From: Nitrospira sp.
GTDB taxonomy: Bacteria > Nitrospirota > Nitrospiria > Nitrospirales > Nitrospiraceae
Direction: 5' to 3'
Length of the DNA stretch: 64,000 bases
Assembly: GCA_024331045.1 (NCBI GenBank)
Contig: JANDJC010000007.1
Location: 1-64,000, forward strand
The notes below the pieces were generated by a model. It was given only the letters and a program-made list of their open reading frames with translations. It did no database searches and was not told where the DNA came from. The stretch's first letter is position 1. Every line of letters begins with the position of its first letter. The position numbers and the translations under genes were made by a program. Positions 51,413 to 64,000 of this stretch are shown piece by piece.

Positions 51413-52207
51413 ATGACTCGATTTGTAGGACAGCCGGTCAACAACGGTGGCATACGAGGCGATCGCCGCATCGCGCCGCATCCGCCGTTGCGCGCGTATT
51501 ATGAAAAGCCGGAGGAGAGGCAGGCGTTTCTAAACGATCTGTTTAACAAGACGGCAGGCCAGTATCGATACATCGACAGGGCAGCCGGATTAGGGTCCGG
51601 TCGCTGGTATCGAAAGAAGGCACTGGAACTTGCCGGGTTGAAGCCAGGCATGAGGGTGCTCGATGTTGCCTGCGGGCCAGGCTTGATGGGGCAGGGTGCC
51701 GTGCAGCTTGTAGGTCAGGCTGGATTCGTGATCGGACTTGATCCCAGCGTCGGCATGTTGCGCGAGGCGCGACGGGAGGGCTGTCGGCGTGTGGTCCAAG
51801 GGGTGGGGGAACGACTCCCGTTTCGCGACCAGACCTTCGACTTTCTCAGCATGGGCTATGCCCTCCGACACCTGTCCGATCTCAGGGAAGCCTTTGCGGA
51901 GTATTGGCGCGTCCTGAAACCGGGCGGGATCGTGTTGTTGTTGGACATTGCTCGTCCCCGCTCGGCCGTTCTGAGTCGATTATTGCGATGGTACCTCAAA
52001 GAGGTGCTCGGGACGGTGTTGGCTGCCCGAAGTGGGGATGAGAATCTGAAGCGGCTGATGGCGTACTGGTGGGAGACAATCGAGCAGTGTGTGCCTCCCG
52101 CCATCATCGTTCAAACGTTGGAAGAATCGGGTTTCCTCGACTGTCAGGTCACCGAGCGATTCGGTGGTCTCGTGCGTGACTATCGCGCGGTCAAGCTGGC
52201 AGCGTAG
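51413..52207 (+). CDS. Class I SAM-dependent methyltransferase (cluster)
   Basis: A 264-residue UbiE/COQ5-like methyltransferase: FNKTAGQYRYIDRAAGLGSGRWYRKKALELAG, MRVLDVACGPGLMG (SAM motif I), VIGLDPSVGMLREAR, RLPFRDQTFDFLSMGYALRHLSD and YWRVLKPGGIVLLLDIARP. ATG 51413 is preferred because the upstream frame runs into the DUF4105 gene. It opens a tightly packed forward operon continuing to 62049. In aryl polyene clusters a methyltransferase acts on the aryl head group; that is the likely role here by inference. Confidence 0.85.
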   Translation: MTRFVGQPVNNGGIRGDRRIAPHPPLRAYYEKPEERQAFLNDLFNKTAGQYRYIDRAAGLGSGRWYRKKALELAGLKPGMRVLDVACGPGLMGQGAVQLVGQAGFVIGLDPSVGMLREARREGCRRVVQGVGERLPFRDQTFDFLSMGYALRHLSDLREAFAEYWRVLKPGGIVLLLDIARPRSAVLSRLLRWYLKEVLGTVLAARSGDENLKRLMAYWWETIEQCVPPAIIVQTLEESGFLDCQVTERFGGLVRDYRAVKLAA

Positions 52208-52231
52208 ACGTCGCAGAGGCAAGGCATCGTA

Positions 52232-52504
52232 ATGGAGCAGACCGGTTTCTCAGCGATGGAGCGGGATCTTGCCGAATTGATCGTCAAGACGCTGAAGCTC
52301 AAGATTGATCCGGCGTCTATTGAGCCGCAGGCCCCCTTGTTCGGTGAGGGGCTGGGGCTGGATTCGATCGACGCGCTTGAGTTGTCGCTGGCCATTTCAC
52401 AACGGTACGGGTATCAGCTCAAGTCGAGCGATCCGGATATCAAAACCATCTTTTCCTCCTTGCGGGCGCTGGCCCACGCTGTTGAAACGCACCGGACAAA
52501 GTGA
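52232..52504 (+). CDS. Acyl carrier protein (cluster)
   Basis: A 90-residue carrier protein with the phosphopantetheine site GLGLDSIDALELSLAI (Ser near residue 45). It differs from housekeeping AcpP ([10 protein letters not shown]) and resembles the ACPs of aryl polyene clusters (GLDSIDALEL type). The ligase gene starts four bases after its stop. Only one cluster ACP is visible; APE clusters usually have two, so another may lie past the right edge. Confidence 0.9.
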   Translation: MEQTGFSAMERDLAELIVKTLKLKIDPASIEPQAPLFGEGLGLDSIDALELSLAISQRYGYQLKSSDPDIKTIFSSLRALAHAVETHRTK

Positions 52505-52507
52505 GCG

Positions 52508-53866
52508 GTGCCGGCCATGCGCGAAGTCCCCTTGCTCGGGCCCTATCAGCAGGACGATCTCTTGGCGTGGGGGCAGGGAGTGTCTCGTACTGCCGCTCAG
52601 TTTTTAAGCAACGTCTATTCTCTTGCTGACCGGTTGCCCGATCGGCCCACCGTGCTGAACCTCGCCGCCAGCCGCTATGAGTTTCTTGTCGGTTTTGCGG
52701 CGGCAATGATACGACGACAGGTGACGTTGCTGCCCCATAGCCGAGTACCCCATGTTCTCAGGGAGATGGTCCGTGACTATCCTGACAGTTATGTGTACAC
52801 GGATCACGAGACACCCAGTGGGATGAGCGAGCTGGTGCCGGTTCTGAGTCGGCAGTCGTCCGCTTCCGAGTGCTGCCCACCGGATATCCCCGTGATTCCC
52901 TTAGATCAAGTCGTGGCCATTGCGTTCACCTCCGGCACCACCGGGAAGCCGGTTCCTAACCGGAAAACATGGGCCGCATTGATCTCCGTCGCGCAGGCCA
53001 CTGGCGCACGGCTGGGGATCAAGGATCGGGAGCAAATCACCGTCGTGGCGACCGTGCCGCACCAGCATATGTTTGGTCTGGAGGCCTCTGTGATGTTGCC
53101 GATTGTCCATGGGTTGGCAATGCACGAAGGGCGGCCGCTGTTTCCCGCCGATGTCGCAAGCGTGTTAATGGAGGTGCCGGGACGGTGGCTCTTGGTGACC
53201 ACGCCGATTCACCTGCGCGCCTGTGTGGCTGAAGGGGTTTCTGTGCCGAAAAGAGGGCTCATCCTGTCGGCTACGGCGCCGCTGGCTCTCGAGGTGGCAA
53301 GGAGGGCGGAGCAGCAATTTCAATCAGAAGTTCGAGAAATTTTCGGATTTGCAGAGGCGGGCAGTGTAGCGGAGCGACGCACGGTGGCCGGTGATTGGTG
53401 GAGACCATTGGACGGTGTACGAGTGGAGCAGGAGGGAACGGCCTGTGTAGTCCGTGCTTCTTATCTCCCCGTGCCGGTTTCTGTGCCAGATCGGCTCTCC
53501 GTCTCTCCAAACGGAGAGTTTATTGTGCATGGCCGCAAGGCCGATGAGGTTCACGTCGCCGGATATCGAGTATCGCTCGGAGAGTTAAACAGCAAATTAC
53601 TGCAAGTCGAAGGAGTGCAGGATGGCGTCTTTGTCATGCCGGATGAGCAGAGCGGCTTGGTTACGAGGTTGATGGCCTTTGTCGTGGCACCGGGCAAAAG
53701 GAGCGAGGAGATTCTGCGCGCGTTGCGGGCGCATATCGATCCAGCATTTCTACCGCGTCCATTGGTTTGTGTGCCGAAGCTGCCGCGCAACGAAACGGGC
53801 AAGTTACCCCGTGAAACGATCGAAGAGATGGTTCGGTGGTGGAGGGAGGAGAAGGGCCGTGAATGA
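52508..53866 (+). CDS. AMP-dependent acyl/aryl ligase (cluster)
   Basis: A 452-residue adenylate-forming enzyme, likely activating an aryl acid for loading onto the ACP. Seen: AFTSGTTGKPVPNRKTW (the ATP-binding P-loop A3, altered after the second Gly), VPHQHMFGLE, GFAEAGSVAERR (A5-like), DRLSVSPNGEFIVHGRKADEVHVAGYRVSLGELNS (A7-A8) and PRNETGKLPRETIEEM (A10 Lys). It matches the ligases of xanthomonadin/aryl polyene clusters (ApeH/XanA2 type). It uses a GTG start two codons before ATG. The end overlaps the dehydratase start. Confidence 0.87.
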   Translation: MPAMREVPLLGPYQQDDLLAWGQGVSRTAAQFLSNVYSLADRLPDRPTVLNLAASRYEFLVGFAAAMIRRQVTLLPHSRVPHVLREMVRDYPDSYVYTDHETPSGMSELVPVLSRQSSASECCPPDIPVIPLDQVVAIAFTSGTTGKPVPNRKTWAALISVAQATGARLGIKDREQITVVATVPHQHMFGLEASVMLPIVHGLAMHEGRPLFPADVASVLMEVPGRWLLVTTPIHLRACVAEGVSVPKRGLILSATAPLALEVARRAEQQFQSEVREIFGFAEAGSVAERRTVAGDWWRPLDGVRVEQEGTACVVRASYLPVPVSVPDRLSVSPNGEFIVHGRKADEVHVAGYRVSLGELNSKLLQVEGVQDGVFVMPDEQSGLVTRLMAFVVAPGKRSEEILRALRAHIDPAFLPRPLVCVPKLPRNETGKLPRETIEEMVRWWREEKGRE

Positions 53867-54182
53867 TGAACGAACCGTTGTGATCGGATTCGACCATCCG
53901 TCGATCGCCGGCCACTTTCCTCGTCGACCGATCGTGCCGGGCGTGGTGATACTTGGCGAGGTGTTGGAAACGATTCGATTGGCGGAGCCGGACCTGAAAA
54001 CGGTGAGCGGGATCCCCGTCGCGAAATTTGCTTCGCCCCTCAAGCCTGGTGAGTGTCTCGTCATCAAAGTGACTCGGACGGCTCTCGAGCAGGTGTCCTT
54101 TGTCTGCCGTGTTGGTGAACGGGTGGTGGCCTCCGGCATTATTGATTTTGCGATGGCGCCGGCACCGGTAAACGCAGCGTGA
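53859..54182 (+). CDS. Hot-dog-fold dehydratase, ApeI type (cluster)
   Basis: A 107-residue single hot-dog domain: VVIGFDHPSIAGHFPRRPIVPGVVILGEVLETI is the FabA/FabZ-like HPxxxGHFPxxPxxPG motif with the catalytic His. The rest (GIPVAKFASPLKPGECLVIKV) fits the small dehydratases next to the ligase in aryl polyene clusters. GTG start at 53859, eight bases inside the ligase end; the stop overlaps the next gene by four bases. It is a good candidate for the dehydration in each polyene cycle. Confidence 0.85.
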   Translation: MNDERTVVIGFDHPSIAGHFPRRPIVPGVVILGEVLETIRLAEPDLKTVSGIPVAKFASPLKPGECLVIKVTRTALEQVSFVCRVGERVVASGIIDFAMAPAPVNAA

Positions 54183-55075
54183 GTCTTGCGTGGCGACAAC
54201 AACGGGAACGGGGCAGTCGCACCGGCATCCGCGCCATGACCTGGGTGGCGGTGACGTTGGGGCGGACGGTCGCCCGCATGCTGCTGTATCCGATTTGCGC
54301 GTACTTCCTGGTGGGCTCACCGGAGAGTCGGCGGGCGGTAGCTCGGTTTCGGGCAGTCGTCTTCGGTCGGCCCGCCAGGTGGTGGGAACTTTTTCACCAC
54401 TATTACGCCTTTGGGGCGACCATTCTCGATCGTGTGTACTTGCTCCAGGCTCGCTTTGATTTGTTTGATCTCCGATTCCACAACGTGGAAGCGTTGAATC
54501 GCGAGTTGGCCAAGGGCCGTGGTTGTATTCTCATGGGAGCCCATGTCGGCAGTTTCGAGGTGATCCGTGCCGTGGGCGTCTTGGGGCGCCGGCTGGATGT
54601 GATGGTCGTCATGGATGAACATAATGCGCCACTGATGCGCCGTCTCACGGAGGTGCTGAATCCGGCCATGGCGGCGACCGTGATTCAAGCGGGGGGCGTT
54701 GAGGCAATGTTGCGCGCGAGAGAATGTTTGGAGCGGGGTGGGATTGTTGGCATGATGGGAGACCGCCCAATCGGTCGTGAACAGACGGTTGACTGTCTGT
54801 TTTTTGGCCGCCCCGCCCGCTTCCCGACGGGGGCCTTACGATTGGCTGCTCTCCTCGACGTGCCGGTCGTGTTGTGCTTTGGATTGTACAGAGGGGGAAA
54901 CCGGTACGATGTCCATTTTGAATCCTTTCTCAACGGCGGCGACCAGCCTGGCGATCAACAAAAGCCGTCCCTCCACCACGCCATGCAGCACTATGTCGCG
55001 CGCCTGGAAGCGATGTGCCGTCTCGCTCCGGACAACTGGTTCAACTTTTATGAGTTTTGGGACGAAGCCTCGTAG
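54179..55075 (+). CDS. LpxL/HtrB-type acyltransferase (cluster)
   Basis: A 298-residue enzyme of the lysophospholipid/lipid A acyltransferase family. The HX4E catalytic motif is HVGSFE, in GCILMGAHVGSFEVIRA; GGIVGMMGDRPIGREQTVDCLFFGRPARFPTGALRLA is the second conserved block; the end NWFNFYEFWDE is a cluster-family signature. In many aryl polyene clusters this domain is fused behind a GT2 domain; here it is a separate gene. It would attach the polyene to a lipid or sugar carrier. Start GTG 54179 overlaps the dehydratase stop (GTGA). Confidence 0.85.
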   Translation: MSLAWRQQRERGSRTGIRAMTWVAVTLGRTVARMLLYPICAYFLVGSPESRRAVARFRAVVFGRPARWWELFHHYYAFGATILDRVYLLQARFDLFDLRFHNVEALNRELAKGRGCILMGAHVGSFEVIRAVGVLGRRLDVMVVMDEHNAPLMRRLTEVLNPAMAATVIQAGGVEAMLRARECLERGGIVGMMGDRPIGREQTVDCLFFGRPARFPTGALRLAALLDVPVVLCFGLYRGGNRYDVHFESFLNGGDQPGDQQKPSLHHAMQHYVARLEAMCRLAPDNWFNFYEFWDEAS

Positions 55076-55079
55076 GACC

Positions 55080-55670
55080 ATGAAAATGGTCCCGATCCTA
55101 ATTGCCGGCATGTTCGGCGTCGTAGCGCAGGGGATGGCTAGCGATCCTTCGGAGACCGCTTGGACCATTGAGCAGTTGGCTGCTTTAGTGAGGGAGCAGC
55201 GGGAGTCCACGGTTCTCTTTGAGGAGACAACCTACTCTTCGCTGGTAACTCGGCCGCTCGTCACGCGAGGAGTGTTGCGTTTTACGCCTCCGTCTCGATT
55301 GGAGAAAGAGGTACGGGAGCCTTACCGGGAACGGTATGTGATCGAGGGAGATCTGGTGACGGTGGAGAGTGAGCGGCGAAACATGACCAAAACCCTGTCG
55401 TTGGAGAGTTATCCAGGCCTTCGGGGATTTGTTGAGACAGTTCGAGCTGTCCTGAACGGCGATGTAAAGGAGATGATGCGGGACTACGACTGGTCGCTGG
55501 CGGGAGAAAAACGCTACTGGGTGTTACGTCTGCATCCGCGGGAGCAGAGTGGTGTGGTGGTTGAGTCCATTGAGCTGGTGGGAGTAGATGGCCGTATCCA
55601 GACGATTACGATTTGGTTTGCTGGGGGAGACCGCTCTGTGATGGCTCTGTTGCCGGGTCGGCTGCCATGA
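55080..55670 (+). CDS. LolA-like outer-membrane lipoprotein carrier (cluster)
   Basis: A 196-residue exported protein with a short signal (MKMVPILIAGMFGVVAQGMA) and a LolA-like fold: TIEQLAALVREQRESTVLFEETTYSSLVTRPLVTRGVLRFTPPSRLEKEV is the typical LolA opening in APE clusters (ApeL type), and VESIELVGVDGRIQTITIWFAGGDRSVMALLP the end. It would ferry the lipidated polyene across the periplasm. The stop overlaps the MMPL gene start (ATGA). Confidence 0.85.
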   Translation: MKMVPILIAGMFGVVAQGMASDPSETAWTIEQLAALVREQRESTVLFEETTYSSLVTRPLVTRGVLRFTPPSRLEKEVREPYRERYVIEGDLVTVESERRNMTKTLSLESYPGLRGFVETVRAVLNGDVKEMMRDYDWSLAGEKRYWVLRLHPREQSGVVVESIELVGVDGRIQTITIWFAGGDRSVMALLPGRLP

Positions 55671-57988
55671 TCGTGTCTCGATGGGTACTTCTGCTCTGGA
55701 TGGCCGCTATGGGTTCTAGCCTCTGGTACCTCACGGAGACGTTGTCGGTTCGTAACGATTTGGGAGATCTCTTGCCCGAAGGGGTGACCGAAGCTCAGCA
55801 GGTCCTGCTGTCGCAGGTGCGTCAAGGCTTGGCAGGTCGGCTAATCTTGTTGGCAGTGGAGGGCGCGTCGCCGGAGGAGTTGGCTCGGCTGAGTCGGTCT
55901 TTGGCGGAGGCGATCCGGGCTGATGGGACGATTGGGATAGTGGCCAACGGCGTGGACAGCAACCAGGAAACAGAACGGGTCCTGATCGAAAAGTACCGCT
56001 ACCTGCTCAGTCCTGCGATCACCGCGGAGATGTTTTCGGTGGCCGCTCTTCGCGCCTCGCTCGAGCAGCGCTTGGACGATCTCCGCTCCCCGCTCGGGGT
56101 TCTGATAAAGGATCTGATTCCCGCCGATCCGACCGGGGAAACGTGGCGCATTCTGCAAATATGGTCCGGCGGCGATGGGCCGATGAAGTATCGAGGGGTG
56201 TGGATGGCACCGGACCGGACCAGAGCCCTCTTAGTGGTAGCGACAAGGGGAGGGGGATTTGATGTGGATGCCCAGGAATCAATTCAAGTGGCCATCCGAG
56301 CTTTGTTTGATCAGGTGGTGAAGCAAACTGGTCTCCAGGCGCGATTGCATATGAGTGGACCGGGGGTGTTCGCTGTTGAGGTCCAACGAGCCATCGAATC
56401 TGAGGCTTGGCAGTTGTCTGTGGTGGCGTCCGTTCTGGTCGTTGGGCTGCTGTATGTGAGCTACCGGTCGCTGATGCTGGTTGTGCTGAGTCTGATTCCG
56501 ATTCTCACCGGGATTGTGATCGGTGTCCTCGTGGTCAACCACTGGTTCGGCTTCGTCCATGGCATGACCTTGGGATTTGGCATCACTTTGCTGGGCATTG
56601 TGGATGACTATCCGATTCACCTGTTCAGCCACTTGTCCGGTCACGAATCGGCTGGAATGGCGATGCGGACCATCTGGCCGACTATGCGGTTGGGCATGCT
56701 GACAACGGTCATTGGTTTTTCGGCATTGCTGTTGTCTGGCTACCAGGCATTAGCGCAATTAGGGCTCCTGGCGATTGTCGGGCTCGTTACGGGAACCCTC
56801 GTGACCCGGTGGGTGGTGCCGGCCTGCATTGGCTCCCACTTTCTTCCCCTGGCGGTGCCGAGGCATCTTGTGTCACGGCTTGATCTCCTATCGAAGGGGC
56901 AGGTGCCGGCCGCAACCGTGCTAGTCCTTGCCGCGGGAATCTTGATCTGGTCTGATACGCCGATGTGGGAACAGGATGTGACGAGGCTGAGTCCCGTGCC
57001 GGAGGAAAAAAAGCAGTTTGACCAGCAATTGCGACGCGAACTCGGTGCTCCCGAGGTGAGGGATCTGCTGGTTGTCGAGGGATCGACGGTCGAGGAGCTT
57101 CTGGAGAAGGCGGAGGTTGTGGCAGAGAGGATGGAGCGGTTGCGCGCAAACGGCACCATCAAGGGATACGACATCGTCTCCCGGTATGTCCCCAGCCAAC
57201 GGACACAATTGGAACGGCAACGACTCTTGCCAGAGCGGGTGGTGCTGGAGCGAAATCTGGCTGAAGCGTTGAAAGGATTGCCCTTTGCTCCTGGTCTCTT
57301 TGTCCCGTTTGTGGAAGCGGTGCAGGCATCTCGATCGATCGATCCTCTTGGCCTCGATGCCTTCGCAGGAACAATGGTAGGGGTCAAGGTGGAGTCGTTT
57401 CTGTTTCCCCAGGGAAGCCGGTGGATGACCGTGGTGCCGTTGAGCGGAATCGAGGATCGACGGCGGCTGACGGAGGCGGTCGAGGGATGGAAGGATCAGT
57501 CGATCAGGTACGTGGATCTTAAGGAAGAGTCCAACCGAGTGATGATGGCCTATCGCGATCGAACCGTGCAGTTGCTCGGATGGGGGGGCATGGCAATTGG
57601 GGTGGTGCTGGCAGTGGGGTTACGGTCGGTGACATTAGTGGTCCGTGTGTTGACGCCGGTCCTGTGTGCACTGCTTGTGGTGGCGGCAATTCTGAGAGGG
57701 GGAGGGGAGCCACTCTCGCTCTTTCATGTGGCCACGTTTCTGCTTGTTGTCGGACTGGGGCTTGACTATGGACTGTTTCTCAATCGTCCTGAATGCGAGG
57801 GGGAGGAGCGGCTCAGAACCAATTTCGGGCTACTGGTGTGCAGTGGCACCACCATGTTGGTCTTCGGTGTCTTGGCCGTTTCGAAGACGCCGGCGCTCCA
57901 TGCGATCGGTGTCACCGCTGCCAGCGGGTCCCTGTGCTGTCTGCTTTTTGCGTCGGTGATGGCCAGGAGGAAATCCGATGTCGCCTGA
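55667..57988 (+). CDS. MMPL/RND-family exporter (cluster)
   Basis: A 773-residue membrane transporter with two matching halves. The N-terminal half has a first helix (VLLLWMAAMGSSLWYL), a large periplasmic loop, then a helix bundle with FGITLLGIVDDYPIHLFSHL (double Asp in the proton-relay helix). The second half repeats this with VVGLGLDYGLFLN. About a dozen hydrophobic segments are seen. It matches the MMPL exporters of aryl polyene clusters (ApeM type), probably moving the product out of the inner membrane. It overlaps the following ketosynthase by 11 bases. Confidence 0.87.
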   Translation: MIVSRWVLLLWMAAMGSSLWYLTETLSVRNDLGDLLPEGVTEAQQVLLSQVRQGLAGRLILLAVEGASPEELARLSRSLAEAIRADGTIGIVANGVDSNQETERVLIEKYRYLLSPAITAEMFSVAALRASLEQRLDDLRSPLGVLIKDLIPADPTGETWRILQIWSGGDGPMKYRGVWMAPDRTRALLVVATRGGGFDVDAQESIQVAIRALFDQVVKQTGLQARLHMSGPGVFAVEVQRAIESEAWQLSVVASVLVVGLLYVSYRSLMLVVLSLIPILTGIVIGVLVVNHWFGFVHGMTLGFGITLLGIVDDYPIHLFSHLSGHESAGMAMRTIWPTMRLGMLTTVIGFSALLLSGYQALAQLGLLAIVGLVTGTLVTRWVVPACIGSHFLPLAVPRHLVSRLDLLSKGQVPAATVLVLAAGILIWSDTPMWEQDVTRLSPVPEEKKQFDQQLRRELGAPEVRDLLVVEGSTVEELLEKAEVVAERMERLRANGTIKGYDIVSRYVPSQRTQLERQRLLPERVVLERNLAEALKGLPFAPGLFVPFVEAVQASRSIDPLGLDAFAGTMVGVKVESFLFPQGSRWMTVVPLSGIEDRRRLTEAVEGWKDQSIRYVDLKEESNRVMMAYRDRTVQLLGWGGMAIGVVLAVGLRSVTLVVRVLTPVLCALLVVAAILRGGGEPLSLFHVATFLLVVGLGLDYGLFLNRPECEGEERLRTNFGLLVCSGTTMLVFGVLAVSKTPALHAIGVTAASGSLCCLLFASVMARRKSDVA

Positions 57989-59207
57989 ACTTTCTGATCG
58001 CCTTCGCCCCATGACGCCGGTGGCCCTGTCGGCCTATACCTTGGTGACCGCCAACGGGAGGGGTGTTGGCGCCGTCCTTGAGGCCCTGCGGGCCAGGCGG
58101 TCCGCCCTGAGGCCGTGCGACTTCGAGGACGTGCGGTTGAAAACCTACATTGGGCGGGTGGAAGGGCTGGAAGATTTTTCGCTGGATCGCGACTTGGAGC
58201 CCTTTGATTGTCGCAACAACCGGTTGGCATGGCTGGGGCTTCAGCAGGATGGGTTTACGGCGGCGGTGGCCGAGGCCAAGCAGCGGTATGGTACCCACCG
58301 AATCGCCGTTATCATGGGGACGAGCACGTCCGGTATCCTTGAAACCGAACATGCCTACCGGGCGCGCGATCCGCATACTGGTTCGCTGCCCGCTTGGTAT
58401 GTACCGCGGTATCGCTATACCCACAACATGTTTTCTCTTGGGTACTTTGTGCGGACATGCCTTGGTCTGCACGGACCAGCCATGGTCATTTCCACGGCCT
58501 GTTCATCGAGTGCCAAGGTCTTTGCTACCGCCGCCCGCTTGATGCAGGCCGGCCTGTGCGACGCCGCCATTGTGGGGGGAGTAGACAGTCTCTGCCACAC
58601 GACGTTGTATGGATTCTCAGCGTTGCAGTTGTTGTCGCCCGAACCATGCCGACCCTGTGATGAGGATCGCGATGGTCTGTCGTTGGGGGAAGCAGCAGGC
58701 TACGTCTTGCTGGAACGGATCGAGCGAGCGGGCGGTCGAGGAACGGTGGCACTTCTGGGATATGGGGAAAGTACGGATGGGTACCATATGTCGCATCCTC
58801 ACCCGGAAGGAGCGGGAGCGATTCGGGCAATGAGGGATGCGTTGGCACGGGCCGGCATTCGCCCTGAGGCGGTGGACTATGTGAATTTACACGGAACGGC
58901 CACGAGGGCCAACGACGAGGCGGAAGACAAGGCGGTGTACTGTGTTTTTGGCGCTCGGCCGGCGTGCAGTTCGACCAAAGGGTGGACCGGCCACACCTTG
59001 GGAGCGGCGGGGGTGACGGAAGCCATCATCTCCGCCCTGTGCCTCACGCATCATTTCATTCCTGGTACGCTCAATTGCTGGCGGGTGGATTCCTTGTTGA
59101 AGTGCCGAATCCTCCGTGACCATCAGTTCGGTTCGCTGTCCTGTGTGGTGAGCAATATTTTTGGATTTGGAGGCAACAATTGCAGCTTGGTGTTGGGGAA
59201 GCTGTGA
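57978..59207 (+). CDS. Beta-ketoacyl synthase (cluster)
   Basis: A 409-residue ketosynthase with a complete active site: Cys175 in VISTACSSSAK, His305 in NLHGTATRANDEAE, Lys334 and His339 in STKGWTGHTLGAAG. The sequence is clearly diverged from FabF of the housekeeping operon. The arrangement ketosynthase plus chain-length-factor-like partner (next gene) mirrors type II polyketide systems and APE clusters (ApeO-like). The next gene starts at its stop. Confidence 0.9.
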   Translation: MSPELSDRLRPMTPVALSAYTLVTANGRGVGAVLEALRARRSALRPCDFEDVRLKTYIGRVEGLEDFSLDRDLEPFDCRNNRLAWLGLQQDGFTAAVAEAKQRYGTHRIAVIMGTSTSGILETEHAYRARDPHTGSLPAWYVPRYRYTHNMFSLGYFVRTCLGLHGPAMVISTACSSSAKVFATAARLMQAGLCDAAIVGGVDSLCHTTLYGFSALQLLSPEPCRPCDEDRDGLSLGEAAGYVLLERIERAGGRGTVALLGYGESTDGYHMSHPHPEGAGAIRAMRDALARAGIRPEAVDYVNLHGTATRANDEAEDKAVYCVFGARPACSSTKGWTGHTLGAAGVTEAIISALCLTHHFIPGTLNCWRVDSLLKCRILRDHQFGSLSCVVSNIFGFGGNNCSLVLGKL

Positions 59208-59212
59208 GGCGG

Positions 59213-60013
59213 ATGGAGCTGGCCATCCGCGGTATCGGATTACTTGCCCCTGGTCTGTTGGGGTGGGAAGGGAGTCGGTCGGTGCTGGCCGGCATGCAGC
59301 CCTATGTGCCTGCGCCTGTTCCCCAACCGCAGGCAACGATTCTTCCTCCGAATGAACGGCGCCGCAGCAGCGATGCCGTCCGATGGGCGGTCGAGGTGGC
59401 TCATGAAGCGATGGGACGGTCCGGATTGGACCAGAGGGCCGTGCCAGCCGTCTTTACATCGTCCGGCGGTGAGATCTCGGTGTTCGATCAACTGTCCCGT
59501 CTGCTGGCCACGCAGGATCGGCTGGTTTCTCCCACGCTCTTTCATCAATCCGTGCACAATGCCGCCTCTGGCTATTGGGGCATCGCCACCGCCGGTCAGG
59601 AGTCCTCGACCGCCTTGTCGTGCTACGACGATTCATTCATTGCCGGACTGGTGGAGGCGGCGGCGCTGGTGGAAACGGAGGGGCGCCCCGTATTGTTGGT
59701 TGCCTATGATTTGCCCGTGCCGGCTCCATTACACGAGGCGAGGCCCATTACGACGGGGTTCGCCATGGCGTTGGTGTTAAGCCCCCTGGCTGAGGCGTCC
59801 ATTGCCACTGTGACACTGACACTCAAGGAAGCTAGTGAGGGAGAGCCAACCAGCCTTGCTGATCAGGTGTTGGAGCAACTCAGAAAGCACAATCCAGCTG
59901 CTCGATCATTGCCACTTCTCTGCACCATTGCGGCGGGGATGCGGCAGACCGTGGTGTTTGACTGGCTGGGCGATCAACGGATCGAGGTGACGGTAAGACC
60001 ATGCCGGCTTTAA
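59213..60013 (+). CDS. Ketosynthase-like chain-length factor (cluster)
   Basis: A 266-residue protein with a ketosynthase-like N-terminal domain (PF13723 type): MELAIRGIGLLAPGL, then FTSSGGEISVFDQLSRLLATQDRLVSPTLFHQSVHNAASGYWGIATAGQ. Where active ketosynthases have the nucleophilic Cys, this has HNAASGYW, so it cannot condense; it is the partner/chain-length subunit (ApeC-like). The frame runs further up (59180, 59204 GTG). It overlaps the second dehydratase gene by 13 bases. Confidence 0.85.
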   Translation: MELAIRGIGLLAPGLLGWEGSRSVLAGMQPYVPAPVPQPQATILPPNERRRSSDAVRWAVEVAHEAMGRSGLDQRAVPAVFTSSGGEISVFDQLSRLLATQDRLVSPTLFHQSVHNAASGYWGIATAGQESSTALSCYDDSFIAGLVEAAALVETEGRPVLLVAYDLPVPAPLHEARPITTGFAMALVLSPLAEASIATVTLTLKEASEGEPTSLADQVLEQLRKHNPAARSLPLLCTIAAGMRQTVVFDWLGDQRIEVTVRPCRL

Positions 60014-60444
60014 CCAAGGAAGACCTCAGCCGTTTGCTTCCACATGGGGGAGCGATGTGCCTGCTCGACAGGGTGGAGTCGTGGGACGACGAGTCGATTC
60101 GGTGTGGAGCCCGGTCACATCACGATCCGGCGAACCCGCTCCGTCATGAGGGCAGGTTGCCCGTGGTGGCGGGGTTGGAATACGCCGCGCAAGCCGTCGG
60201 TGTTCATGTCGGGTTGCGAGGGGGAGGCGGATCGAACGACCCGGCCATCGGCGTGGTGGGAGGGGTCTGGGATGTCGTCTGTCGTGGAGACCGGCTCGAT
60301 GTTTGTTCCGACGAGTGCATCATCGAGGCCGTTCGCCTGTTGGGGGACGACCGGGGGGTTCTCTACCGTTTTGTGCTCCTGGTGGGAGGGACGGAAATCA
60401 TGAGCGGGCGGCTGTCGATCTTTTTTCAGGGCAGTCCGGTATGA
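60001..60444 (+). CDS. 3-hydroxyacyl-ACP dehydratase, ApeP type (cluster)
   Basis: A 147-residue hot-dog protein beginning MPALTKEDLSRLLPHGGAMCLLDRVESWDDESIRC, the opening typical of the ApeP/FabZ-like second dehydratase in aryl polyene clusters (LPHxGxMxLLD). Later GLEYAAQAVGVHVGLRGG and IGVVGGVWDVVC fit the family. Partial aryl polyene systems require a heterodimer of ApeI and ApeP dehydratases; both are present here. The stop overlaps the ketoreductase start (ATGA). Confidence 0.87.
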   Translation: MPALTKEDLSRLLPHGGAMCLLDRVESWDDESIRCGARSHHDPANPLRHEGRLPVVAGLEYAAQAVGVHVGLRGGGGSNDPAIGVVGGVWDVVCRGDRLDVCSDECIIEAVRLLGDDRGVLYRFVLLVGGTEIMSGRLSIFFQGSPV

Positions 60445-61166
60445 CGGGGAAGCGTGCCTTGGTGACCGGAGCCAGCGGGGTGATCGGCGCCGCCATCGCC
60501 GAACGGCTGGCCGCCGACGGCCATACCGTTATTGTGCATGGCTATCGAAACCGCGAGACGGCTGAGGAGCTGGCGTGCAGGATTCGTCAAAGGGGACGAT
60601 CAGCCACGAGTGTTTGCTTTGACGTCACCGATGCCCAGCAGACAAGCGATGCCCTAGCCGCCCTGTTGCGAGAGGGGCCAATTCAGATCGTCGTCAACAA
60701 CGCTGGTTTGCACGATGACGCACCCATGGCCGGTATGACCAGCGATCAATGGAAGAAGGTGATCGATCTCTCGCTGCACGGATTTTTCAACGTGACGCAG
60801 CCGTTGCTGCTGCCGATGATCGGCGCACGATGGGGGCGGATCATTTCGATTTCGTCCGTGGCGGCCGTGCTCGGAAACCGGGGCCAGACCAACTATGCGG
60901 CGGCCAAGGCTGGTTTGCATGGGGCGAGCAAATCGCTAGCACGGGAGGTGGCGTCGCGGGGGATCACCGTGAATGTCGTGGCGCCGGGGCTGATCGAGTC
61001 TCCTTCAGTCCAGGCAGTGTTCTCACAGGAACAGATTGAGACCCTAGTGCCCATGAAACGGGTAGGACGGCCGGAAGAGGTTGCCGCGCTGGTTTCTTTT
61101 TTGATCTCGGAGCAGGCTGGATACATTACCGGCCAGGTCATCGGCATCAATGGTGGCATGGTGTAG
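60441..61166 (+). CDS. 3-oxoacyl-ACP reductase, FabG type (cluster)
   Basis: A 241-residue short-chain dehydrogenase: TGASGVIGAAIAERLAADG cofactor motif at residues ~9-16, NNAGLHDD, catalytic Ser-Tyr-Lys around SISSVAAVLGNRGQTNYAAAKAG, and a C-terminal GYITGQVIGINGGMV. It is a second fabG, distinct from the housekeeping copy at 6878. It would reduce the beta-keto group in each polyene extension (ApeQ role). Confidence 0.9.
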   Translation: MTGKRALVTGASGVIGAAIAERLAADGHTVIVHGYRNRETAEELACRIRQRGRSATSVCFDVTDAQQTSDALAALLREGPIQIVVNNAGLHDDAPMAGMTSDQWKKVIDLSLHGFFNVTQPLLLPMIGARWGRIISISSVAAVLGNRGQTNYAAAKAGLHGASKSLAREVASRGITVNVVAPGLIESPSVQAVFSQEQIETLVPMKRVGRPEEVAALVSFLISEQAGYITGQVIGINGGMV

Positions 61167-61209
61167 CACGGTATCGGGAGAGGCGGGATTTTATCGCGAG
61201 CGCTAAACG

Positions 61210-62049
61210 ATGAGCATCGGCGGACAACCGATCACCGAGAGCTGTGAGTGTTTGAGCGGAAAGGCCGTGCCTGCCACCTGGAGGGCGGGAAATTGGTTGC
61301 AGACGGAGCAAACGGCATCGTCCTATTGGGTGGTCATTCCTGCCTGTAACGAGGCGGCGACCGTTCGCGAGGTGGCCGCGCGTGCGAGACGGTACTGCCC
61401 GAACGTGATCGTCGTGGATGACGCCTCATCCGATGGGACCGAGCGGGTCTTGGAGGGATTGGACGTGACGGTGTTGCGGAACAAGGTGAATTGTGGGAAG
61501 GCTGGCAGTCTCGCACGAGGCTTCGAGTATGCACTGTCCAAGGGCGCGGTGGGAGTGGTGACGCTGGATGCGGATGGTCAACATGCTCCAGAGGACATTC
61601 CTCGGTTTTTTGAGCAAGCCCGGCGGGAGCCGAATGTCCTGCTGATTGGCGCCCGCCGCCGCGATCAGCGACGTGCCCGCTTCTGGCGCTATGCAGCCAA
61701 TTGTTGTGCCGACTTTTGGATCGGCATAGCGGCGGGACTCTCGATAGAGGACAGTCAGTCGGGATATCGCCTCTATCCCTCTACACTGCTCGCGTCGGTA
61801 AACATTCCACACGGGAGGAGCAGGAGTTTTGTCTATGAGAGCGAGATCCTGATCGAGGCTGCCAGGCAGGGGACGGTGATCAGAACCATTGGCGTGAGTG
61901 TCGGTTTTCGAGGAGGGGCGAGCCCCAGTCACTTTCGACCGTTGCTCGATGGGCTGCGAATTGCCGGGATGGTGACCCGCAAGCTCATCGGCCTCAGCTT
62001 ATCTTCTCTGGGATTGTCCCCCTTAATTCAGCGGGGAGGCATGCGCTGA
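61210..62049 (+). CDS. GT2-family glycosyltransferase (cluster)
   Basis: A 279-residue GT-A-fold glycosyltransferase after a ~38-residue N-terminal extension. Motifs: WVVIPACNEAATVREVA, VIVVDDASSDGTERVL, LRNKVNCGKAGSLARGFEYAL, and the metal-binding VVTLDADGQHAPEDIP, then DSQSGYRLYP (acceptor/catalytic region of dolichyl-phosphate-mannose-synthase-like enzymes). Two hydrophobic patches near the C-terminus suggest membrane association. In aryl polyene clusters a GT2 domain is often fused to the LpxL-type acyltransferase (ApeJ); here the two are separate genes. It ends the forward operon. Confidence 0.87.
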   Translation: MSIGGQPITESCECLSGKAVPATWRAGNWLQTEQTASSYWVVIPACNEAATVREVAARARRYCPNVIVVDDASSDGTERVLEGLDVTVLRNKVNCGKAGSLARGFEYALSKGAVGVVTLDADGQHAPEDIPRFFEQARREPNVLLIGARRRDQRRARFWRYAANCCADFWIGIAAGLSIEDSQSGYRLYPSTLLASVNIPHGRSRSFVYESEILIEAARQGTVIRTIGVSVGFRGGASPSHFRPLLDGLRIAGMVTRKLIGLSLSSLGLSPLIQRGGMR

Positions 62050-62128
62050 GGGGCCCCTTGGAAGAAGCGATCGGACAATAGCTGCGTGGAGCAGAACGAG
62101 GCCACGGCGGCCGGCCAGGCAACGGTGA

Positions 62129-62353
62129 TCAGGCGCTCAGGCCAGAGAGGCGGCGTTTGATCGCGTTATCCAGATTCTCGATCCAGCTTCGGTAATTTTT
62201 GTGAATCGTTTGTGTTGCAGGGTCGTAGTTGAGATTCGTGCTGTCCTTGTAGAGGATGCTATAGGTTTTCGTGGGGTATGGAATTCCGATAACCGCGGTG
62301 TGGCTGCTTAGGTGAAGGGTACCGATAATTTGCCCCGACTTGACGACGGTCAT
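62129..62353 (-). CDS. C-terminal part of a split cluster lipoprotein
   Basis: A 74-residue frame starting at ATG 62353: MTVVKSGQIIGTLHLSSHTAVIGIPYPTKTYSILYKDSTNLNYDPATQTIHKNYRSWIENLD. I recognise this as the C-terminal half of a small exported lipoprotein family of one ORF (~130 residues). Its N-terminal half is the adjacent frame 62350-62532, which ends at a stop overlapping this ATG. Joining requires one extra base or a -1 shift at the six-C run 62357-62362 (G-run on the coding strand). By itself it has no export signal. Confidence 0.6.
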   Translation of the reverse strand: MTVVKSGQIIGTLHLSSHTAVIGIPYPTKTYSILYKDSTNLNYDPATQTIHKNYRSWIENLDNAIKRRLSGLSA

Positions 62354-62532
62354 AGTCCCCCCAGCCCAGAGTCGGCTTCCACGATAGCCTTGATGACCTG
62401 ATCCAAGGTCGCTTCCTTGCCAGTGGCGGTCGTGACGAGTGTGCCTTTTACGTTGTAGATCTCTCCTCCCCCACGGCAACCGGTTAGTCCAATCCCCACG
62501 AAACATAAGCACAGTACCAGCAGTTTCATCAT
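62350..62532 (-). CDS. N-terminal part of a split cluster lipoprotein
   Basis: A 60-residue frame with a lipoprotein signal (MMKLLVLCLCFVGIGLTGCRGGG, lipobox L-T-G-C) followed by GEIYNVKGTLVTTATGKEATLDQVIKAIVEADSGLGGL. This is the N-terminal half of a single-ORF lipoprotein family; the remainder is in the next frame (62129-62353). The stop follows a six-G run and overlaps the downstream ATG. The coding-strand site (G-GGG-GGA) resembles a -1 slippery sequence. Indel, programmed frameshift or coupled split genes are all possible. Confidence 0.65.
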   Translation of the reverse strand: MMKLLVLCLCFVGIGLTGCRGGGEIYNVKGTLVTTATGKEATLDQVIKAIVEADSGLGGL

Positions 62533-62543
62533 CTCTTCGATTG

Positions 62544-63488
62544 TCAGGTGGGACGCTGCCTTTCAACGGACCATGATGGAGCAGAGGTTCTGGGGTGTCG
62601 TGTCGTAGGCCAAGGGTCAGGGAGGACGGTGTCACGCAACGCGGCGGGAGAATACCCAACAGAAAAGACATAATCAATCAACCTGTCAACTAAGTCCAGA
62701 TTGGCCGGTCCCATCCCTCGTTGGTTCCATTTGGACATGTTCTTGGGAAATCGCTGGTCCGTGGCGGGGAGAAATTCGAACGGATGACAGTAGAAGACGA
62801 GATGGGGTGATTGTCGGGCGATCCAACGAATCATGGAGGTGAGGACGGCCAGCCCCAGTACTCGCAGGGCAGCCAGGTTGATGGGGAAGAGATAAGCCGA
62901 GGGGGGGATTTCCACGATTGGCCCATGGCCGGGCTGTCCCAGATGATGAGAGGAGGGGCGATAAGGTGCAAGGGGTGCCCAGAAGTAATCGGTGTAATGA
63001 ACGCGCCCGAATCCCATGTCAAATCGTCTGGCGGGGACGGAGGAGTCAAATTGATATCCCTCTTCGGCTAAGATCCTGACAGTGGTCTCGCCGATACGGA
63101 GGTTGGGTGCCCGAAAGCTGACCGGCCGCACACCGCAGGCTGCCTCGACCGCGCTGGTTGCAAGCCGGATCCATTCCCGTTGTTGTTCGTAAGTGGCGAG
63201 CCGGAAGTCTTCGTCTTCTTCTAAGCTGCCGTGGGCCCAACCATGGGTGCCCACTTCATGGCCGTGCCGATGACAATCCCGGACCAGGTCGGGACAGGAT
63301 TCGGCGAACCGTCCGGCGAAAAAAATTGTCCCTCGAAGTCGATGCTTCTGGCAAAGGACCAATAGCCGTTCGAGACCAGGTTGCGAGCCAGGTACCCAGT
63401 CACAGTCGATCGTAAATGAAAACCGTCGGGGGGGCATCGTGCTCCTTGCTCCGTCATTTTGATCAAGGAAAGGGAGGGCCCTCATCAT
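62544..63488 (-). CDS. Polysaccharide deacetylase (NodB family)
   Basis: A 314-residue NodB-type deacetylase. FTIDCDWVPGSQPGLERLL carries the Asp-Cys-Asp of motif 1 (T-x-D-x-D), HEVGTHGWAHGS the motif 2 His pair, and VSFRAPNLRIGETTVRIL motif 3. ATG 63488 overlaps the chorismatase stop by four bases; an internal ATG would give MPPRRFSF. It deacetylates an N-acetyl-sugar substrate (envelope polysaccharide or a sugar on the product); the exact target is unknown. Such an enzyme is not a standard aryl polyene gene. Confidence 0.82.
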   Translation of the reverse strand: MMRALPFLDQNDGARSTMPPRRFSFTIDCDWVPGSQPGLERLLVLCQKHRLRGTIFFAGRFAESCPDLVRDCHRHGHEVGTHGWAHGSLEEDEDFRLATYEQQREWIRLATSAVEAACGVRPVSFRAPNLRIGETTVRILAEEGYQFDSSVPARRFDMGFGRVHYTDYFWAPLAPYRPSSHHLGQPGHGPIVEIPPSAYLFPINLAALRVLGLAVLTSMIRWIARQSPHLVFYCHPFEFLPATDQRFPKNMSKWNQRGMGPANLDLVDRLIDYVFSVGYSPAALRDTVLPDPWPTTRHPRTSAPSWSVERQRPT

Positions 63489-64000
63489 GCGTGTGGTGCC
63501 TTCGCCACGAGCAGGCCTTCGATTTCCGTGAATAACTCACGGCGGCACAGATCGCCCTGCAGAAACACACAGTGCCGGACAGGCAGTGATGAATCATGGA
63601 ACGCGGCCTGAATGGCCGAGAAATGATCGGGATTCCGGATGTACACTTTGAAAAGGGCGTGGTTGGTTTGAGCCAACAGATTGGCGCCGCAAGCCGAGCT
63701 GGCTCGTTCGAGAACGGCCGTGACGTTGCGAATCGATTCGTGTGTTTGATCGACAGGGGCGCCGATGTGTTGGCTGGCGTGTCCAACCACGCTGGCTGTG
63801 CCGGCGATAAAGAGAGTAGTGCCTTGGGGAAATCGGCACAAAGTCGCCCGCGCGAATGAAGGGCTGCGGGGTCCGTAGGCCGGGGGATATTCGTAGGCAT
63901 TCAGTTGTCGTGGGTTGTCAAGATGTGTCGGCGGTCTGGTGCTTGCCAGAAACATGATCTGAAGGGGTCCATAGGGAGTGCCCACGGCCGTGGCAGCCGG
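63485..64000 (-). CDS. Chorismatase (FkbO/Hyg5/XanB2 family), 3' part
   Basis: The reading frame is open to the right edge, so the start lies outside the window; about 171 C-terminal residues are present. AVGTPYGPLQIMF and, after ~30 residues, FPQGTTLFIAGTASVVGHASQHIGAPVDQTHESIRNVTAVLERA match the chorismatase FkbO/Hyg5 family (a RidA-like fold), as does the end FTEIEGLLVAKAP. XanB2-type enzymes cleave chorismate to 3- and 4-hydroxybenzoate, the starters for xanthomonadin. It heads the reverse operon, coupled to the deacetylase. Confidence 0.82.
   Translation of the reverse strand, partial: PAATAVGTPYGPLQIMFLASTRPPTHLDNPRQLNAYEYPPAYGPRSPSFARATLCRFPQGTTLFIAGTASVVGHASQHIGAPVDQTHESIRNVTAVLERASSACGANLLAQTNHALFKVYIRNPDHFSAIQAAFHDSSLPVRHCVFLQGDLCRRELFTEIEGLLVAKAPHA

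Follow-up and report, generated by a model that had tools for sequence, protein, structure and literature searches.

Among the closest described relatives of the locus is the arcuflavin system of Azoarcus sp. BH72, for which Table 1 of PMC3949708 lists a halogenase, a chorismatase/XanB2 and a polysaccharide deacetylase together with the same polyene set as found here. With purified ArcB, only 3-hydroxybenzoate was formed in an enzyme-dependent manner, 4-hydroxybenzoate being formed without enzyme, while E. coli expressing arcB gave both acids; ArcT adenylates 3-hydroxybenzoate and also benzoates modified at position 4 (PMC3949708). In the xanthomonadin system of Xanthomonas and in Lysobacter, which are likened to the present locus by description, a chorismatase stands beside a type II polyene synthase and supplies 3-hydroxybenzoate, and the Xanthomonas clusters carry a halogenase (PMC3691225). 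Lysobacter enzymogenes deleted for its xanB2 homologue (ORF5) lost about 90% of the pigment and regained it with 3-hydroxybenzoate (PMC3691225). A further role of XanB2 is to provide 4-hydroxybenzoate for coenzyme Q, and sequence alone does not fix the product of a chorismatase (PMC3949708). The aryl polyene of E. coli is predicted to start from 4-hydroxybenzoate made by UbiC (PMC8253772). Within Nitrospira, predictions of aryl polyene clusters exist for N. inopinata, N. lenta, N. japonica and a fourth, unnamed species (PMC9765116); no paper combining “Nitrospira” and “chorismatase” was found in the literature searched.

The window, that is, the whole stretch of 64,000 nucleotides analysed here from a Nitrospira contig, carries a polyene operon of the xanthomonadin/arcuflavin type on the plus strand (51479-62049; Table 1). 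As the earlier note had observed, a chorismatase and a deacetylase on the minus strand oppose this operon and form an arm convergent with it. The gene set expected of this type is present: ketosynthase and partner, acyl carrier protein, AMP ligase, reductase, dehydratases, acyltransferase, LolA, exporter, chorismatase and halogenase, with LolA and one dehydratase recognized by weak matches and the other dehydratase by position. Compared by gene list, the arcuflavin set shares the methyltransferase, acyl carrier protein, AMP ligase, two dehydratases, acyltransferases, LolA, exporter, ketosynthase and a protein with an N-terminal ketosynthase domain, reductase and glycosyltransferase; its halogenase (arcA) is listed beside the chorismatase (arcB), and its deacetylase is arcN (PMC3949708). 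In Azoarcus, however, the genes are spread over two loci and accompanied by dialkylresorcinol genes (PMC3949708), whereas here they occupy a single locus with halogenase, chorismatase and deacetylase as the convergent arm. The gene set is already known from arcuflavin clusters and is newly found in Nitrospirota; it is a system of known biochemistry in another phylum.

Table 1. Genes of the polyene operon and of the convergent arm (window positions unless a locus is named)
Feature	Position	Strand	Remarks
UbiE-type methyltransferase	51479..52207	+	first operon gene; start not settled
Acyl carrier protein	52232..52504	+	NF006617, over cut-off
AMP ligase	52508..53866	+	PF00501; expected to load aryl acid onto the carrier protein
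Dehydratase, FabA-like domain	53733..54182	+	under Pfam cut-off; start not settled
LpxL-type acyltransferase	54179..55075	+	PF03279
LolA-like carrier	55080..55670	+	weak match to LolA2_flexi, below cut-off
MMPL-type exporter	55613..57988	+	PF03176
Ketosynthase	57978..59207	+	NF006618, 517 bits, over cut-off
Chain-length-factor-like partner, ketosynthase N-terminal domain	59180..60013	+	PF13723
Second dehydratase	60001..60444	+	named by position relative to known clusters; no NCBIfam match
3-Oxoacyl-ACP reductase, FabG-type	60438..61166	+	NCBIfam search
Family 2 glycosyltransferase	61210..62049	+	last operon gene
Small lipoprotein-like gene	62129..62532	-	between deacetylase and polyene operon; conserved in relatives
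Polysaccharide deacetylase	62544..63488	-	PF01522, 68 bits; next gene downstream of chorismatase
Chorismatase, 3′ part	63485..64000	-	frame open at window edge
Chorismatase, full gene	G000:C89:63485-64543	-	352 aa; start at contig position 64543
Flavin halogenase-like protein	L002:3596-4954	-	PF04820, 95 bits, over cut-off; next gene upstream of chorismatase

The edge gene and its convergent neighbours

The earlier note had recognized chorismatase signatures in the gene at the right edge of the window and had taken that gene to be cut there. Both points hold, as GTASVVGHASQH and FTEIEG are present exactly in the minus-strand frame, which runs off the end and represents only the 3′ half of the gene. 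The window comprises bases 1-64000 of a contig reaching base 73,027 (the genome, G000, is 84.7% complete), and extension of the contig to the right, which the note had proposed, recovered the complete frame. The encoded protein matches Pfam PF21168 (FkbO_Hyg5-like_N) with 126 bits against a cut-off of 27, over profile positions 1 to 122 of 122. In a PDB sequence search, only FkbO (4bps; E 2e-41, 145.6 bits) and Hyg5 (5ag3, 5a3k; E 2e-39, 139.1 bits) are strong relatives, the next match being at E 0.36.

An AlphaFold2 model built from a 31-row alignment has a pLDDT of 89.7 and a pTM of 0.89. When this model is searched against PDB folds, ranks 1 to 7 are all Hyg5 (5ag3, 5a3k) or FkbO (4bps) with TMq of 0.77 to 0.81 and, for Hyg5, 28% to 29% identity in the fold alignment; among the best 50 rows, cyclic amide hydrolases follow at 0.40 to 0.46 and single RidA-family proteins at 0.24 to 0.30, the latter from rank 26 on. 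Together with the full-length PF21168 match, this whole-chain fold match indicates that a chorismatase N-terminal domain is followed by a RidA-like domain at the C-terminus, and by sequence and model the edge gene is identified as a complete two-domain chorismatase of the FkbO/Hyg5/XanB2 family. The possibility that it aligns only to RidA/YjgF proteins and lacks the chorismatase N-terminal domain, which the earlier note had named as fatal to its reading, did not materialize. Because the protein scores 195.5 bits with NCBIfam TIGR04444, below the curated cut-off of 325, it falls by sequence outside the bounds that NCBI sets for the FkbO/Hyg5 subfamily; membership of the wider chorismatase family does not depend on that model.

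Flavin-dependent halogenases carry the signatures WxWxIP and GxGxxG. The halogenase-like protein encoded next to the chorismatase has both, as WWWIIP and GAGPAG, and gives 194 bits with the CmlS model, under its cut-off of 900.

The deacetylase had been described as coupled to the chorismatase. In the window, the chorismatase stop does overlap a possible deacetylase ATG by four bases, an alternative start lying 47 bases past that stop, but the overlap is not conserved: a start giving it occurs in at least two of the 20 chorismatase-deacetylase pairs measured (the window and L037), and conserved translational coupling by this route was dropped. What stands is that the two genes share a strand in all 20 loci. 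Since the deacetylase mostly travels with the chorismatase, it most likely trims an acylated or glycosylated intermediate. The neighbouring lipoprotein-like gene is read as two frames in the window and as one open frame in the five relatives read; the split reflects a genuine frameshift or else a mistake in the assembly.

Active-site residues and the predicted product

Residues were mapped by counting along the PDB sequence alignment with the nine-residue offset between Hyg5 and Nat-hyg5 numbering, and the rules for chorismatase subfamilies are taken second-hand from PMC7170507. There, Glu334 of Hyg5 is the acid that starts the reaction, and the CH-II residues of Nat-hyg5 are Gly164, Gly231 and Cys318 (PMC7170507). 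The catalytic glutamate has its equivalent in Glu340 of the window protein, and the three CH-II positions correspond to Ala186, Gly248 and Cys333, position 186 being mapped on the assumption that the same offset applies as for the other residues. Two of the three CH-II residues are thus present, and the enzyme is not classed as CH-II because Ala186 replaces the signature Gly of Hyg5. FkbO (CH-I), which has the same fold and belongs to the same family, carries Ala in place of both Gly240 and Cys327 of Hyg5, a criterion read off FkbO alone, whereas the window protein has Gly248 and Cys333; FkbO-type chemistry is unlikely because these two residues of hydroxybenzoate formers are present. The likeness to Hyg5/Nat-hyg5 of Streptomyces (CH-II) accordingly covers the fold, the catalytic Glu and the Gly and Cys of the signature, and the difference lies in Ala186 and in the setting, which is a type II polyene synthase rather than a modular PKS.

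All 16 family sequences compared, and all 31 sequences of a wider set, keep Glu340, Gly248 and Cys333 unchanged. In a larger residue table, in which 123 proteins were reduced to 97 distinct rows by merging identical ones (two typed reference segments included), Glu340 is retained in 93 of 93 readable rows, Gly248 in 95 of 96 (Ala in FkbO) and Cys333 in 90 of 93 (Ser in two, Ala in FkbO). Ala occupies position 186 in 79 of the 96 readable rows, every readable Nitrospirota row among them; six rows have Gly (both references, two proteins from actinobacterial plasmids, Caballeronia and Aureibacter), and 11 rows from proteobacteria have Val, Leu or Cys. The patterns of the named-genome scan include LPA[GA]TAVGT and so favour Ala186. 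A less biased sample comes from a profile search of the Gammaproteobacteria class, in which 71 of 369 genomes had a match and 30 loci were examined: among the 29 readable ones (one was unreadable), 26 have Ala at position 186, two have Val and one has Gly. Ala186 is therefore common to most homologues of this class. XanB2 belongs to the same class, and a XanB2-like product range, 3-hydroxybenzoate with some 4-hydroxybenzoate, appears the likeliest for the window enzyme. No Xanthomonas is among the matches listed (80 loci) in the named-genome scan for XanB2. The window protein departs from columns conserved at 80% at two places only, 315 and 338.

Association with polyene operons and the supply of the starter

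In the 175 genomes of the family, a chorismatase was found in 42 by protein search, and likewise in 42 over cut-off by the Pfam profile, which gave weaker, sub-cut-off matches in three further genomes; the polyene AMP ligase (E up to 1e-30) is in 56 and the ketosynthase (E up to 1e-60) in 51. Operons were typed by ligase identity as type A (at least 50%; 43 genomes) or type B (39% to 42%; 13 genomes), and the ketosynthase identities split likewise, at 64% or more and 62% or less. The chorismatase is present in 41 of the 43 type A genomes versus one of the 132 genomes without a type A operon (Fisher p 2e-36, a descriptive value only, as related genomes were treated as independent). In the two type A genomes where it is missing, the ketosynthase begins 2.7 kb from a contig end on the side where the chorismatase is expected (G076), or the contig ends just beyond the deacetylase (G050, L072). 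All 42 chorismatase genomes have the polyene ligase, and none of the 119 genomes without that ligase has a chorismatase over cut-off. One of these, a single-contig genome, gives a weak match to the chorismatase N-terminal profile (G037:C1:2935150-2935380; 20.7 bits, cut-off 27).

Physical linkage is close. Fifty-one chorismatase places were counted, after a 68-residue fragment (G066:C5, E 2.8e-5) had been dropped together with the type B ketosynthase places, which have no chorismatase, except that of G048. Thirty-three share a contig with a ketosynthase, and the match starts lie 3.5 to 8.3 kb apart in 32 of these 33 pairs and 641 kb apart in G048; for the remaining 18 the contig gives no ketosynthase match, and these represent split assemblies and lone cassettes. 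In the linked genomes (L033-L052), ketosynthase, chorismatase and halogenase are found in 20 of 20 loci with the same convergent layout, and the deacetylase in 19, being missing in L052. Three further type A loci (L062-L064 in G136, G135 and G058) have chorismatase and deacetylase without the halogenase, and one (L065 in G002) has the halogenase without the deacetylase. Outside the family, bins of other Nitrospirales and of beta-, gamma- and alphaproteobacteria have chorismatases adjoining polyene genes, frequently together with a halogenase; some homologues, for example those of Solimonas and Hydrocarboniphaga, have no polyene gene in the flanking DNA examined. Eleven plasmid records (Streptomyces, Pseudonocardia, Aureibacter, Caballeronia and Parabacteroides) also carry homologues.

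Other suppliers of an aromatic starter were considered. A UbiC-type chorismate lyase was rejected, as it was found in 0 of the 175 genomes by a search that did find E. coli among 14 control genomes. An aromatic amino-acid lyase (PF00221) occurs in 13 of the 175, which include a single type A genome (G016) of the 43 and no type B genome; it was rejected for the window locus, being absent from G000 (84.7% complete). The earlier note had proposed that the starter here comes from chorismate, in contrast to the ammonia/aromatic lyases of many aryl polyene clusters. The first part is well supported by inference from co-occurrence (41 of 43), linkage (32 of 33) and the lack of a known rival supplier; the contrast was too sharp, since for E. 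coli, too, the predicted starter of the aryl polyene derives from chorismate (PMC8253772).

Our main reading, to which we assign a probability of about 0.86, is that the product of the window gene is a hydroxybenzoate-forming chorismatase that supplies the polyene starter from chorismate. Family, fold, catalytic residues, linkage and co-inheritance come from sequence and structure comparison; what the enzyme releases, how that acid is loaded, the halogenation and the nature of the pigment are inferred. The chorismatase would take chorismate from the shikimate pathway, Glu340 would protonate its enolpyruvyl side chain, and an arene-oxide intermediate would yield pyruvate and 3-hydroxybenzoate, perhaps along with some of the 4-isomer. 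The acid would be loaded by the AMP ligase onto the carrier protein and extended by the ketosynthase pair, the reductase and the two dehydratases to an aryl polyene carboxylic acid. The halogenase-like enzyme directly upstream of the chorismatase and a methyltransferase may decorate the ring, and delivery of the product to the outer membrane would fall to the acyltransferase, the LolA-like protein and the MMPL exporter. On this basis, part of the Nitrospira family is predicted to make xanthomonadin-like, perhaps halogenated, pigments from chorismate. The Nitrospira group includes nitrite oxidisers and comammox bacteria.

That 4-hydroxybenzoate is the main product and the starter, through the second product of XanB2 or a CH-IV activity, would agree with the altered CH-II residue at Ala186, with the formation of both acids by XanB2 and in arcB-expressing E. 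coli, with the adenylation of position-4-modified benzoates by ArcT (PMC3949708) and with the prediction for the E. coli aryl polyene (PMC8253772). We nevertheless regard it as unlikely, given that the nearest studied systems, arcuflavin and Lysobacter, start from 3-hydroxybenzoate (PMC3949708, PMC3691225) and that with purified ArcB enzyme dependence was seen for 3-hydroxybenzoate only (PMC3949708). An FkbO-like (CH-I) conversion of chorismate to 3,4-dihydroxycyclohexa-1,5-diene carboxylate as the starter is very improbable: FkbO is the best sequence match by a small margin (145.6 vs 139.1 bits), but its Ala residues at the Hyg5 Gly240 and Cys327 positions face Gly248 and Cys333 here.

The chorismatase could also merely adjoin the polyene operon while serving something else, such as a diffusible hydroxybenzoate signal or a quinone precursor. 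Six genomes in which an additional chorismatase, accompanied by a methyltransferase and a deacetylase, has no polyene genes in the flanks examined, and the orphan chorismatase of G048, which stands apart from an operon, would fit such a role; it is quite improbable in view of the lack of a chorismatase over cut-off in all 119 genomes without polyene ligase and of a close linkage repeated in Nitrospirota and in several proteobacterial bins. A plain RidA protein is ruled out by the full chorismatase N-terminal domain and the whole-length Hyg5/FkbO fold match, and the chance that an ordinary RidA/YjgF deaminase merely bears an unrelated N-terminal extension is negligible: the C-terminal half has a RidA-like fold and RidA-family proteins do appear among the lower fold matches, but the catalytic Glu, Cys and Gly are kept as well.

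Operons, cassettes and alleles among the relatives

Not every such polyene operon needs a chorismatase, as 12 of the 13 type B genomes are without one. The type B operons L066-L071 (G032, G034, G046, G006, G039 and G048) have no chorismatase, halogenase, UbiE-type methyltransferase or other starter supplier in the flanking DNA examined, where L066, L069 and L071 were mapped by frame and partly by Pfam, L068 by frame, and L067 and L070 with the proteins of the window only. Another deacetylase lies upstream in L066, L068, L069 and L071 (by Pfam for L066, by eye for the others). L066, L069 and L071 have an additional UDP-glycosyltransferase-like portion, which in L066 and L071 forms a fusion with the family 2 enzyme.

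Lone cassettes in six genomes (L053, L054, L055, L056, L058 and L059) consist of a lipoprotein-like gene, a chorismatase, a SAM methyltransferase and a deacetylase, with no polyene genes in the 7 to 18 kb around them; the catalytic residues of their chorismatases are intact in the distinct rows listed. These genomes also carry type A operon genes, on one contig in G158, G160 and G119 and split in G066, G142 and G154. In G048, whose type B operon is 641 kb away, the orphan chorismatase (L057:8634-9671) occupies the same chromosomal site as the window locus, with no match to a polyene operon, deacetylase or halogenase. The gene order there is AIM24-M48-DUF3015-DUF4105-chorismatase-hydrolase, and the same genes bracket the operon and arm of the window (AIM24, M48, DUF3015 and DUF4105 named by eye).

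A more speculative reading, which we consider less likely than not, is that polyene operons borrow the chorismatase-deacetylase arm as a module for head-group supply with an inheritance of its own: it would be found beside the operon, as lone cassettes in genomes whose polyene operon genes are accompanied by another chorismatase, and as the orphan of G048, perhaps feeding the distant operon of that genome, while the type B polyene would take its starter from no known supplier. The type B operons without a supplier, the lone cassettes and the orphan are more interesting than the window gene itself, above all the chorismatase-free polyene operons of neighbouring genera.

In a chorismatase tree of 94 rows, which left out three short ones (L111, L120 and L061), the window gene falls in a clade of 32 rows (100/100) within which the orphan gene of G048 is nested (97/91). 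A second clade of 14 rows (100/100) unites the lone cassettes with the halogenase-less operon-linked L062, L063 and L102, and the chorismatases of G002 (L065) and L105 lie outside both. The window chorismatase is under purifying selection, as dN/dS is about 0.15 to 0.23 against three relatives (dN 0.28 to 0.29, dS 1.3 to 1.9).

Toward one relative, G096, the chorismatase is 61% identical, against 92% for the ketosynthase and 91% for the halogenase, and its dS of 1.88 compares with 0.37 to 0.80 in the 11 operon genes measured; toward G098 (1.66) and G101 (1.28) its dS is within the range of the operon genes, values above 1 being near saturation. Because the dS toward G096 is raised too, an exchanged allele is likelier than fast or relaxed evolution of the chorismatase, which is disfavoured. 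This suggests, mainly from the one pair with G096, that the convergent arm may have been exchanged between strains independently of the operon. Over window 61210-64000 and L002, the glycosyltransferase end, the deacetylase and the chorismatase diverge more from G096 than do most of the operon and the outer flank, which is a possible sign of allele exchange. A second polyene locus in another genome (L061, G093:C4) contains a ligase fragment, a deacetylase and a chorismatase fragment with an internal stop, and this locus is apparently decaying.
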